A DNA stretch of 64,000 nt from Zoogloea sp. (GTDB lineage Bacteria > Pseudomonadota > Gammaproteobacteria > Burkholderiales > Rhodocyclaceae), in the NCBI RefSeq assembly GCF_023150065.1, contig NZ_JAKLLN010000014.1, positions 1 to 64,000 of the forward strand, in the 5' to 3' direction. Position numbers and translations under genes: made by a program. This document shows positions 51,153 through 63,625 of the stretch, piece after piece (positions within the stretch are counted from its first letter, which is position 1; the number at the start of each line of letters is the position of its first letter). The notes under the pieces were generated by a model. The model had not been told where the DNA came from. It ran no database searches and worked only from the letters and a program-made list of their open reading frames with translations.

Positions 51153-52655
51153 TCAGAGCATCATCACCACCGACTTCGACTCGGTATACAGATCCAGCAC
51201 CGCCCGGCCCATCTCGCGGCCGATGCCCGACTGCTTGTAGCCGCCGAAGGGCATGGCGTTGTCGAGGATGTTGTGGCAGTTCACCCACACGGTGCCGGCC
51301 TTGATCTTGGGGATCAGGCGATGCACCCGCGACAGGTCATTGGACCAGATGCTGGCAGCCAGGCCGTAGGGGGTGTCGTTGGCGCGCCGGGCCACTTCGT
51401 CAAGATCGGCGTAGGGCATGGCCACCACCACGGGCCCGAAGATCTCCTCCCGCACCACGCGCATGTCGTCGCGGGTATCCACCAGCACCGTCGGCCTGAC
51501 GAAATAGCCCATGTTGCCATCGACCGTGCCACCCACCGCCGCCCGCGCGCCCTCGCCCAGGCCGCTGTCGATATAGCCGAGCACGCGCTGCTGCTGCACC
51601 GCCGACACCAGCGGGCCGATCTGGGTGCCGGGGTCGATGCCCGGACCGATCTTCATGCCGGCGGCAATGCCCGACAGCTGCTCCACCACCTCATCAAAGC
51701 GGCTGCGATGCACGTAGAGGCGCGAGCCCGCGGTGCACACCTGGCCCTGGTTGAAGAAGATCGCCTGGGCCGCGCCGGCCGCCGCCACCGCCGGGTCGGC
51801 ATCGTCGAGCACGATCACCGGGCTCTTGCCGCCCAGTTCCAGGGACACCCGGGTCATGTTGTCGAGGGCGGCCTTGCCCACCAGCTTGCCGATCTCCGTC
51901 GAGCCGGTGAAGGCCACCTTCTCGATACCCTTGTGGGCGGCCAGCGCCGCACCGGCCGTGTGGCCCAGGCCGGTGACCACGTTGAGCACACCCGGCGGGT
52001 AGCCGGCTTCCTGCACCAGCTCGGCAAAGCGCAGGGCCGTCAGCGGGGTTTCCTCGGCAGGCTTGAGCACCATGGTGCAGCCCGAGGCCAGGGCCGGGCC
52101 CACCTTCCAGGCGGCCATCAGCAGCGGGAAGTTCCACGGGATGATCGCCCCCACCACGCCCACCGGCTCGCGCCGGGTAAAGCCGAAGAACTCCCGCTCG
52201 CGCACCAGGGGCACCGACAGCTCCATGGTGGAACCCTCGATCTTGGTGGCCCAGCCGGCCATGTAGCGCAGGAAGTCGATGGACAGGGCCACGTCCACAT
52301 GGCGCGCCATGGTCACCGGCTTGCCGTTGTCGATGGCCTCCAGCTCGGCCATCTCCTGGGCATTGGCCTCGAGCAGGTCGGCGAGGCGCAGCAGCAGGCG
52401 CTCCCGGTCCACCGGGCGCATCCGCGACCACTCGCCCGCCTCGAAGGCGTGGCGGGCGGCGCTCACGGCCCGGTCGATGTCGGCCGCGTCACCGGCCGGC
52501 ACGCGGCAGAACACCTCGCCGCTGGCCGGGTCGATGACCGGCAGGGTTTCACCGCTCACCGCCTCCACCCGCTGGCCCCCGATCATCATGCGCTGGGGGC
52601 CGTCCAGGAAGGCCGCGGTGCCCGCGCCCAGTTCAATGCCGTGCAGTTTCTTCAT
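51153..52655 (-). CDS. Aldehyde dehydrogenase family protein (phenylacetaldehyde/betaine aldehyde dehydrogenase-like)
   Basis: ALDH motifs VSLELGGKSPVIVLDDAD, FFNQGQVCTAGSRLYVH, FGGYKQSGIGREMG. Confidence 0.93.
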   Translation of the reverse strand: MKKLHGIELGAGTAAFLDGPQRMMIGGQRVEAVSGETLPVIDPASGEVFCRVPAGDAADIDRAVSAARHAFEAGEWSRMRPVDRERLLLRLADLLEANAQEMAELEAIDNGKPVTMARHVDVALSIDFLRYMAGWATKIEGSTMELSVPLVREREFFGFTRREPVGVVGAIIPWNFPLLMAAWKVGPALASGCTMVLKPAEETPLTALRFAELVQEAGYPPGVLNVVTGLGHTAGAALAAHKGIEKVAFTGSTEIGKLVGKAALDNMTRVSLELGGKSPVIVLDDADPAVAAAGAAQAIFFNQGQVCTAGSRLYVHRSRFDEVVEQLSGIAAGMKIGPGIDPGTQIGPLVSAVQQQRVLGYIDSGLGEGARAAVGGTVDGNMGYFVRPTVLVDTRDDMRVVREEIFGPVVVAMPYADLDEVARRANDTPYGLAASIWSNDLSRVHRLIPKIKAGTVWVNCHNILDNAMPFGGYKQSGIGREMGRAVLDLYTESKSVVMML

Positions 52656-52703
52656 CTGTGTCTCCTCTTCGTCGGTCTTATGGTGGGGTAAAACAAGATC
52701 GGA

Positions 52704-53183
52704 TCAGGTATCGCCCGGCGTGCCGCGCAGGATGCCGGCGCGGGAGCCGGCGGTGGCGCGGGCCACCTCGGCGGCCCCCTCGCCCAGATCCAGCTGGCGC
52801 GCCAGGCGGCGCATCAGTTCGCCCTCGAGTTTTTCCAGGCCGTCGGCATAGGCCACCTCCCAGAGCATGGTGAGGATCTCCTGACGCTCGCCCGGGCCGA
52901 AGCCGACCCGCACCGCCTCGGCAAACTCCCAGTCGTCGAGAGCCTCGGCGTAGCGCACCTCGGCAAGCGCCACCAGCTCCTCGACGCGCTCGGGGGGCAG
53001 GTGGAAGCGCGCCATCAGCAGGCGCTTCACGGCCAGGTGCTCGGCCTCGGAGGCCACCCGGTCCACGTACATCGTTTCCAGCAGCAGGGCCGCCACGGCG
53101 ATCAGGCGCCGTTCGAAGGGGCCGCGCTCGGCCGCCTCCGCCTGCACTTCGCCGCGGAGCAGGCCGATCAGTCTTTCCAGCAT
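52704..53183 (-). CDS. TerB-like (tellurite resistance TerB superfamily) protein
   Basis: MLERLIGLLRGEVQ...IAVAALLLETMYVDRVASEAEHLAVKRLLMARFHLPPERVEELVALAE...LTMLWEVAYADGLEKLEGELMRRLARQLDL. Confidence 0.82.
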   Translation of the reverse strand: MLERLIGLLRGEVQAEAAERGPFERRLIAVAALLLETMYVDRVASEAEHLAVKRLLMARFHLPPERVEELVALAEVRYAEALDDWEFAEAVRVGFGPGERQEILTMLWEVAYADGLEKLEGELMRRLARQLDLGEGAAEVARATAGSRAGILRGTPGDT

Positions 53184-53199
53184 GGGTGTGTCCTCGATG

Positions 53200-61923: not shown

Positions 61924-61925
61924 GA

Positions 61926-62471
61926 TCAGTTCCTCAGTTGAATCAGTCGGGGGTGGTTGGCCATCAGCTGGTTGGCGGCGGCGTAGATGCCCAGCAGGGC
62001 GAGGGTGCCGCCGGCCACGGAGAGGTAGTCGATCCACAGCAGGTCGCGCCCGCTGCCGTCCTGCCCGCCCAGTACGGCGACGATCAGGAGCAGGGTGTTG
62101 CGCGCCGGCAGGGCCCAGGTGAGGGTCGTGTGGCCCTCTGCCCCGCCGCAGCCACAGTCGATCTCGGTGTGGCCGCGCAGCAGGTTGGCGATGACGCCGG
62201 CGGTGGCCACACCCAGCACGGCCAGGGCCATCAGCAGGCCGGCGGTGCGGGTGGTGTCGAACAGCAGGGCGACACCGGCCAGGGCTTCCAGCACCGGAAA
62301 GGCCCGGGCGAACAGGGGCACGAGGGCCTCGGGCAGCAGGCGGTAGATGTCCACCGAGGCCTCGAACACCGCCAGGTCGCGCAGCTTCTGCCAGGCGCCG
62401 GTGAGCAGCACCACGGCCAGGGCCGCGCCACAGGCCCGTGCCAGCACGGGGTCAAGGGCAAGGGTGTCCAT
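61926..62471 (-). CDS. aauE: MauE/AauE-type membrane maturation protein (DoxX-like)
   Basis: LTGAWQKLRDLAVFEASVDIYRLLPEALVPLFARAFPVLEALAGVALL...GHTEIDCGCGG; start overlaps aauB stop (ATGA). Confidence 0.88.
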   Translation of the reverse strand: MDTLALDPVLARACGAALAVVLLTGAWQKLRDLAVFEASVDIYRLLPEALVPLFARAFPVLEALAGVALLFDTTRTAGLLMALAVLGVATAGVIANLLRGHTEIDCGCGGAEGHTTLTWALPARNTLLLIVAVLGGQDGSGRDLLWIDYLSVAGGTLALLGIYAAANQLMANHPRLIQLRN

Positions 62472-63625
62472 CAGTGCAGCTCCATCTGGGTGGGCGTCTC
62501 GCCAACGCCTTCCATGCGCTTGCTCAAAGTCAGCTTGCGGCTGGCGTCGAACACGGCGATGGCGGCCTTGACCCCGTCGTAGGCAAACAGCCGCGGGCGC
62601 TCGCCCTGGCTGACGGCCAGCGCGATGGCGTCGTTGCCGGGCGTGCGGGCAATGCGCTTCTTGCTCGCCAGATCGACGGTCCAGATCTCCTTGGCCGGCG
62701 TCTTGTGGCTGCCTTCCTTGCCCTTGTCGTGCATGCCGACATAGAGGCGGCCGCTGGCGTTGTGCTGGGCGAACACCTGATAGCCGCCCGGGCGCCAGCC
62801 CTGCTTGCGGTCGGCGGCGCCGAGCACGGACCACGGGGCGTCGTAGCTGGCCACCTCGCCCCCCACGTGGGCGGTGTGGATCTCGCCGTGGAAGGACACG
62901 AAGCGGTAGGTGTCGCCGTCCTGCTCGCTGTGGATGAAGATCGGGTCCTTGTCCGGATCGAAGAAGCGGGCGCTACGCTTCTGGGTGCGCACCTGGCCAG
63001 CATCGTCGAGGCTGACCGTCAGCAGGGTGCCGTCGCCGCACACGGTGGAGAAGCGCCCGCCCACGCTGGCCGCCGGCAGGATGGCCCAGCAGCCGGGGGT
63101 GGCCACCTCATTCACCGCTTTGCGGGTCTTCAGGTCGATGATGCCGACCGAGGTGGCCGGGGTGGCGTACTGCACGAAAAGCCAGCGCCCGTCGGCGGAG
63201 GGGCGGATGGTGCCCTTGTAGTGGAGGGACTGGGCGTGACGCGGCGGGATCTCGATCTCACCGGTGAGGGCCAGGGTCTGGGCGTCGTGCACATCCACCA
63301 CGTCGGTACGCACGCCATGGCTGAGGCGCGAGTAGTAGGTGGTGGCGACGAAGATCTCCTTGCGGTCCGCCGACAGGGCGGCCTGCCCGGCCAGGCCGGT
63401 GGCGATGACGCCCTCGTAGCGCAGCTTCTCGCCATCGATGACGTGCAGGCGTCCATCCACGATGTGCCCGATGGCCACATCGTGCAGGTAGATCCGGTAG
63501 GGGTTGGGGGGCGGCAGCTTGCCGGTGGTGATCGATTCCGTGGGCAGCTCCGCCATGGCGCCGGCACTGGCGCCCAGTGCCAGGGCTGTGCTCAGCAGGC
63601 TTCCCGCAAAGGCTTTTCGCAGCAC
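62471..63625 (-). CDS. aauB: Amine dehydrogenase large subunit (beta-propeller)
   Basis: PTESITTGKLPPPNPYRIYLHDVAIGHIVDGRLHVIDGEKLRYEGVIATGLAGQAALSADRKEIFVATTYYSRLSHGVRTDVVDVHDAQTLALTGEIEIPPRHAQ. Confidence 0.93.
   Translation of the reverse strand: MLRKAFAGSLLSTALALGASAGAMAELPTESITTGKLPPPNPYRIYLHDVAIGHIVDGRLHVIDGEKLRYEGVIATGLAGQAALSADRKEIFVATTYYSRLSHGVRTDVVDVHDAQTLALTGEIEIPPRHAQSLHYKGTIRPSADGRWLFVQYATPATSVGIIDLKTRKAVNEVATPGCWAILPAASVGGRFSTVCGDGTLLTVSLDDAGQVRTQKRSARFFDPDKDPIFIHSEQDGDTYRFVSFHGEIHTAHVGGEVASYDAPWSVLGAADRKQGWRPGGYQVFAQHNASGRLYVGMHDKGKEGSHKTPAKEIWTVDLASKKRIARTPGNDAIALAVSQGERPRLFAYDGVKAAIAVFDASRKLTLSKRMEGVGETPTQMELH

Follow-up and report, generated by a model that had tools for sequence, protein, structure and literature searches.

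The window analysed here is a 64-kb stretch of 64,000 nucleotides, positions 1 to 64,000 of contig NZ_JAKLLN010000014.1 from a Zoogloea sp. (GCF_023150065.1), and its nearest relatives are named Zoogloea records. It carries an operon of twelve minus-strand genes, running from 63625 to 51153 with a largest gap of 67 bp, in the order aauB-aauE-aauD-aauA-c1-c2-DUF1329-DUF1302-RND-Ycf48-TerB-ALDH. The operon joins an aromatic amine dehydrogenase (AADH), two cytochromes c and an aldehyde dehydrogenase (ALDH) to a four-gene envelope module. This layout and the gene identities, first proposed in a prediction made from the sequence alone (the original prediction), are borne out by coordinates, Pfam and NCBIfam. 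Each half of the operon is of a known kind. Their recurrent pairing, and the AADH-linked sub-lineage of the module with its own gene order, appear to be undescribed: the original prediction knew of no such cluster, and we found no description of a link between aau genes and the module in the open-access literature searched, which does not extend to papers behind subscription, the first reports on the aau cluster among them.

Gene content of the operon

The first gene, aauB (62471..63625), has a GTG start, an AAGGAGG ribosome site and a Sec-type leader, and encodes the AADH heavy (alpha) chain (PF06433, 164 bits). It shares one base with aauE (61926..62471), which encodes a MauE/DoxX-type membrane protein (PF07291, 92.6 bits). 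Two bases on lies aauD (61327..61923), for a MauD thioredoxin-like accessory protein (TIGR02661, 210 bits, exceeding the cut-off of 188.6), and 25 bp further aauA (60768..61301), for the light (beta) chain that would bear the tryptophan tryptophylquinone (TTQ) cofactor (PF02975, 178 bits). The MauE- and MauD-type accessory genes therefore sit between the two subunit genes. AauA is closest to the Alcaligenes AADH (2agl; 187 bits against 162 for the best methylamine dehydrogenase, MADH), and AauB to the AADH structure 2h3x (302 bits against 131). The MADH equivalog cut-offs are missed by both chains (heavy, 170 against 454 needed; light, 172 against 197). These scores rule out a methylamine dehydrogenase, and the enzyme is, judged by homology, the aromatic kind of TTQ dehydrogenase, as had been predicted. 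The aauA product has a twin-arginine-like leader (SRRGALIRIGKL). Aligned with 2agl, its Trp102, Trp153, Asp121 and cysteines are kept in at least 132 of 141 rows; we take the two tryptophans to form TTQ and the aspartate to act in catalysis.

Seven base pairs after aauA comes c1 (60299..60760), a class I cytochrome c (PF13442/PF00034) with a CAVCH haem motif and a Met86 ligand; CxxCH and Met86 are present in all 97 rows. It overlaps by 4 bases with c2 (59853..60302), a divergent cytochrome c (CTGCH; PF00034, 21.7 bits) whose CxxCH is present in 117 of 117 rows and in which no Met column is conserved. We rejected the idea that the cytochromes are universal partners. Some loci that pair AADH with the envelope module (linked loci) have one only, a count to be read in the light of cross-matching c1 and c2 profiles, which make per-cytochrome numbers unreliable, and the group of L041, L052, L054, L059 and L061 has none between aauA and DUF1329. 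Cytochromes are therefore not required everywhere. No mauG was seen in the operon; the atypical haem protein c2 is a candidate for TTQ making in AADH, and it is missing from some loci.

The envelope module starts 34 bp beyond c2, counted from the ATG start of the DUF1329 gene (58442..59818), which encodes a predicted periplasmic LolA-like protein (PF07044, 449 bits; PF17131 LolA_like, 53 bits). After 43 bp follows DUF1302 (56620..58398; PF06980, 465 bits), a putative outer-membrane beta-barrel, then after 67 bp an RND/MMPL inner-membrane transporter (54189..56552; PF03176, 93 bits) and after 14 bp a Ycf48-type periplasmic propeller (53200..54174; PF14870, 81 bits). The transporter is HAE3-like, TIGR00921 HAE3 being its best NCBIfam model (172 bits, under the cut-off of 352). 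An AlphaFold2 model of the DUF1302 protein is a beta-barrel (pLDDT 76, pTM 0.77) whose top Foldseek matches are porins (E 3e-11), with query-normalised TM-scores of just 0.33-0.40; these matches support an outer-membrane barrel of no specific porin type.

The original prediction named no known system for these four proteins. All four families of AmeABCD lie here in a single cassette, with DUF1302 equivalent to AmeA, DUF1329 to AmeB, Ycf48 to AmeC and RND to AmeD, and by its family content the envelope half is an AmeABCD-type tetrapartite RND system, a kind already known. AmeABCD of Castellaniella defragrans, made up of DUF1302, DUF1329, COG4447 (Ycf48-type) and COG1033 (RND) proteins, is a proposed tetrapartite exporter; strains that lack it tolerate monoterpenes less well and accumulate more Nile Red (PMC6394551).

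The operon ends with a TerB-domain gene (52704..53183; PF05099, 87 bits; no leader seen) 16 bp after Ycf48 and, 48 bp beyond it, the gene for a predicted cytoplasmic, phenylacetaldehyde-dehydrogenase-like ALDH (51153..52655; PF00171, 588 bits). The TerB-domain gene is inside the operon in Zoogloea and Azoarcus; in Lautropia-type loci a TerB match lies between RND and Ycf48. A scan of the operon region found no terminator-like site within any gap. Upstream of aauB, the divergent intergenic region (63626..63979) is the expected site of the operon promoter, and no match to the sigma-70 consensus was found in the region scanned. On its far side, on the plus strand, are the first 21 bases (63980..64000) of a gene for an AraC/EutR-like regulator that continues beyond the window (L103:3980-5002). 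The regulator scores 202 bits against the EutR model, below the cut-off of 319, and a homologue adjoins aauB in most related loci.

Recurrence of the pairing and the RND lineage

The original prediction had suggested looking for AauA near DUF1302 and DUF1329 in other genomes, and the combination does recur strongly, in Zoogloea and in many of its soil and water relatives. We retrieved the 80 AauA loci closest to the query, each with as much as 10 kb of flank, added more from genome samples and plasmids, and ran profiles built from the twelve window proteins on all of them. The module is present at 57 of 103 non-redundant loci and absent at 28, with flanks too short to judge at 18, so that 57 of the 85 judged loci are linked, a fraction biased upward by the choice of the 80 for nearness to the query. 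The pairing is common in the betaproteobacterial lineages among these loci. Broader samples of 370 genomes from the class and 397 from the phylum gave PF02975 matches in 10 and 13 genomes (the window's genome and G199 common to both, two of the phylum matches weak or partial), and among about 20 readable loci the module was found at only two, G260 (L117) and one G552 locus (L126). It is absent from the methylamine (mau) cluster examined (L139). Many genomes carry the AADH core without the module, which is therefore accessory and not required for AADH.

Could the halves be chance neighbours, or unrelated gene sets that hitch-hiked together once? Modules of this kind are frequent in Zoogloea, with 0-14 copies of DUF1329 per genome, and the halves would co-transfer as one operon. 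On the enzyme tree, however, the linked or unlinked label takes eight changes, seven of them forced by well-supported branches, and the layouts differ: the module is upstream in Azoarcus indigens (L022) and a relative (L021), divergent in L039 and downstream elsewhere, and in Oxalobacteraceae-type loci (L038, L057, L066, L079) the ALDH gene separates the module from the cytochromes. On plasmid p1 of Cupriavidus pinatubonensis the module lies about 5 kb from AADH. In the window's own genome, with seven DUF1329 loci, a random site would fall within 10 kb of one about 2.7% of the time, and both AADH loci would do so about 0.07% of the time. Given these odds and recurrence in dozens of genomes, the arrangement exceeds chance. 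Recurrence, layouts and at least seven forced changes largely refute a chance association, as does the rejection of a one-clade RND alternative described below (p 4e-10), and we regard such an association as very improbable.

The AADH-linked module is ordered DUF1329-DUF1302-RND-Ycf48, against DUF1302-DUF1329-Ycf48-RND in the published Ame system. In a tree of RND proteins, in which modules of the C. defragrans gene order stand in for its AmeD sequence, the AADH-linked order forms one clade of 64 rows (support 98), made up of 59 AADH-linked rows and five plasmid copies labelled 'other'. One of these five (L154) is the C. pinatubonensis module with AADH about 5 kb off. The sole row from an AADH locus to fall outside the clade is an upstream copy in Ame order at L072, a contig where a single AADH operon is flanked by two modules, the upstream one of Ame order and on the opposite strand, the downstream one of the AADH lineage. 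By gene order and RND phylogeny, then, the amine-linked module is a sister lineage that probably works like AmeABCD and is not AmeABCD itself.

Partners have also been exchanged. The AADHs of L029, L033 and L046 fall in the enzyme clade of L026, L041, L055 and others, and their RND proteins lie elsewhere in the RND tree; an approximately unbiased (AU) test that forced the RNDs of this group together rejected the constraint (p 4e-10, a generous value for a group named post hoc). L126 has a distant AADH and an RND that groups with the Zoogloea type at a support of 100. The pairing was re-formed several times in evolution, and its retention while partners were exchanged is as expected from selection for joint function. 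We are highly confident that the two halves of the operon are functionally coupled in some way.

In the window's own genome, each of the two AADH loci has one of the two copies of the amine-lineage module; the five remaining DUF1329 loci lack AADH and are arranged in Ame order or otherwise. A set of 61 related genomes contains 20 RNDs of this lineage. For 15 of them an AADH light-chain gene is present on the same contig at a distance of no more than 8 kb; of the other five, three occur in AADH genomes but on separate contigs, and two come from AADH-less genomes. Among members of the genus, both halves are present in 13 genomes and neither in 11. A further possibility is that the module has a general envelope-stress or membrane-lipid role and is only co-regulated with AADH, without transporting amine or aldehyde. 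Hopanoid transport is known for HAE3 relatives such as HpnN (according to a secondary citation in PMC6394551), the DUF1329 protein contains a LolA-like domain, and the same four families, assigned to solvent and aromatic stress regulons, are solvent-stress candidates (PMC6449761). Yet AADH is accompanied by one dedicated lineage that has a gene order to itself, and by none of the remaining DUF1329 modules of the genome, and a general function needs no private copy at each AADH locus, whereas both loci have one. We find a purely general membrane role improbable.

Proposed function and direction of transport

From the operon we infer a substrate, a cargo and a direction of transport. The best PDB match of the ALDH is phenylacetaldehyde dehydrogenase 4o5h (732 bits; runner-up structure, 562). 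Against the StyD model NF045735 it scores 743 bits, missing the cut-off of 850, which makes this its closest family, below equivalog level; the homologue at linked locus L061 clears the cut-off (884.7). The genome also encodes the phenylacetyl-CoA epoxidase subunit PaaA. Because the ALDH is nearest to phenylacetaldehyde dehydrogenase and PaaA is present, 2-phenylethylamine or a near relative is the likeliest predicted substrate; the long-chain amines also entertained in the original prediction fit less well. The same genome has a second AADH operon with a module of the same lineage (L104, G000:C218:196000-215999), its RND 56% identical to that in the window. Its different ALDH type suggests a second amine substrate.

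In the pathway that we propose, AauA and AauB, matured with AauD and AauE, would deaminate an aromatic amine such as 2-phenylethylamine in the periplasm and pass electrons to the cytochromes or, where these are missing, perhaps to another acceptor such as azurin. The aldehyde would enter the cytoplasm to be oxidised to the acid by the phenylacetaldehyde dehydrogenase, and the acid could then feed the phenylacetyl-CoA route, which the genome has. The RND protein in the inner membrane, DUF1329 and Ycf48 in the periplasm and the DUF1302 barrel in the outer membrane would together form a trans-envelope transporter, picking up hydrophobic molecules in the periplasm or the outer leaflet and releasing them by way of DUF1329/Ycf48 and the barrel. 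Phenylacetaldehyde is reactive and lipophilic, and it would be produced in one compartment and removed by an enzyme in another; hence export may be needed when aldehyde production outruns oxidation, the pump acting as a toxicity valve that protects the cell. We judge the chances about even that the operon is a catabolic unit for aromatic primary amines whose module moves toxic aldehyde (or amine) outward. A single pathway of deamination, cytochromes, ALDH and envelope system had already been envisaged, and that part is supported; the uptake that was named there beside membrane handling is the less favoured direction, since AmeABCD behaves like an exporter that serves solvent tolerance (PMC6394551).

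The same unit might nonetheless work inward, the DUF1302 barrel and its partners importing a hydrophobic amine or aldehyde to the periplasmic enzyme. Against import, phenylethylamine is small and charged and should pass general porins. In favour of it, the module is tightly coupled to a periplasmic enzyme, and the DUF1302 model resembles porins. Relatives in P. putida (PP_0765, PP_0766, PP_2018 and PP_2019) are required for growth on Tween 20 (PMC10866462), and a DUF1329 deletion in Delftia impaired growth on phenanthrene, as relayed second-hand in PMC13101534. The sole four-part relative studied directly acts as an exporter (PMC6394551), and we hold import to be possible but rather doubtful.

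Several observations weigh against export from an amine-catabolic unit. The Tween 20 requirement could mean uptake (PMC10866462), and the phenotypes of relatives are compatible with either direction. TerB is left without explanation in the proposed pathway. The Pseudomonas, Chimaeribacter and Paracoccus plasmid AADH loci examined lack the module, as do those of Curvibacter and others. Genomes G027 and G043 have a lineage RND and no AADH, and the co-occurrence within the genus is a corollary of the halves travelling as one operon, not independent support. Finally, L104 and other loci use another ALDH type, and linked units therefore do not all share one substrate.

The AADH-less copies of the lineage, around which genes were called by a codon-usage caller, adjoin ALDH and alanine dehydrogenase genes (L146), a DAO-family oxidoreductase gene (L147) and RidA (L148). 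At L155 (G027:C14:1-10900) a lineage RND module, on a contig with no AADH, is followed by an ALDH, two di-haem CCP_MauG proteins and a NorB-like protein. It is conceivable, if unlikely, that the DUF1329-DUF1302-RND-Ycf48 lineage serves solely as an amine/aldehyde conduit, carrying either the product or the substrate of periplasmic amine oxidation through the envelope and possibly touching the dehydrogenase, and that different amine-oxidising enzymes have repeatedly recruited it.

DUF1302 and DUF1329 are families of unknown function, though widespread beside aromatic-degradation genes. Where a sub-lineage is repeatedly paired with one enzyme of known chemistry, as here, the small molecules involved are defined (arylalkylamine in, aldehyde out), and such transporters can be probed for cargo and direction. 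The pairing also adds an envelope component to the biology of TTQ amine dehydrogenases, which is usually framed as enzyme plus electron acceptor.

Neighbouring genes and known systems

Past the regulator, L103:7425-9646 encodes a cytochrome c550 that exceeds the NCBIfam cut-off for PedF, along with a solute-binding protein and a propeller associated with pyrroloquinoline quinone (PQQ) catabolism, a set that resembles phenylethanol (ped) genes; two sigma-54 activators are also there. Within the window, 37674-46080 holds an operon-like fatty-acid set (FadL/TodX barrel, thiolase, acyl-CoA dehydrogenase and TetR regulator). A deaminase-domain protein at 732-2501, adjoining tRNA-Thr (2535-2610), matches the PADLOC dCTPase model at 528 bits and is a candidate anti-phage nucleotide-depletion gene.

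Among described systems, aauBEDA of Alcaligenes faecalis shares the B-E-D-A core order and gives the best match for both subunits (2agl, 2h3x). To our knowledge, that cluster does not include DUF1329/DUF1302/RND/Ycf48, TerB or ALDH genes. The mau cluster of Paracoccus denitrificans (L139), of the same superfamily, also shares the B-E-D-A core; it differs in having amicyanin, mauJ, mauG and ferredoxin genes, with no envelope module and no ALDH nearby. On the envelope side, the expressed 'nanopod' cluster of the benzene degrader ORM2a (PMC13101534) ties DUF1329, YCF48 and MMPL to aromatic degradation, and the nanopod proteins of Delftia Cs1-4 (PMC3110197) do the same for DUF1302 and DUF1329; unlike the Zoogloea operon, both act on hydrocarbon substrates and have no amine dehydrogenase. 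The closest likeness to the module is AmeABCD of Castellaniella (PMC6394551), which has the same four families. AmeABCD adjoins monoterpene genes in an order of its own, whereas the Zoogloea module adjoins AADH and belongs to a separate RND clade.

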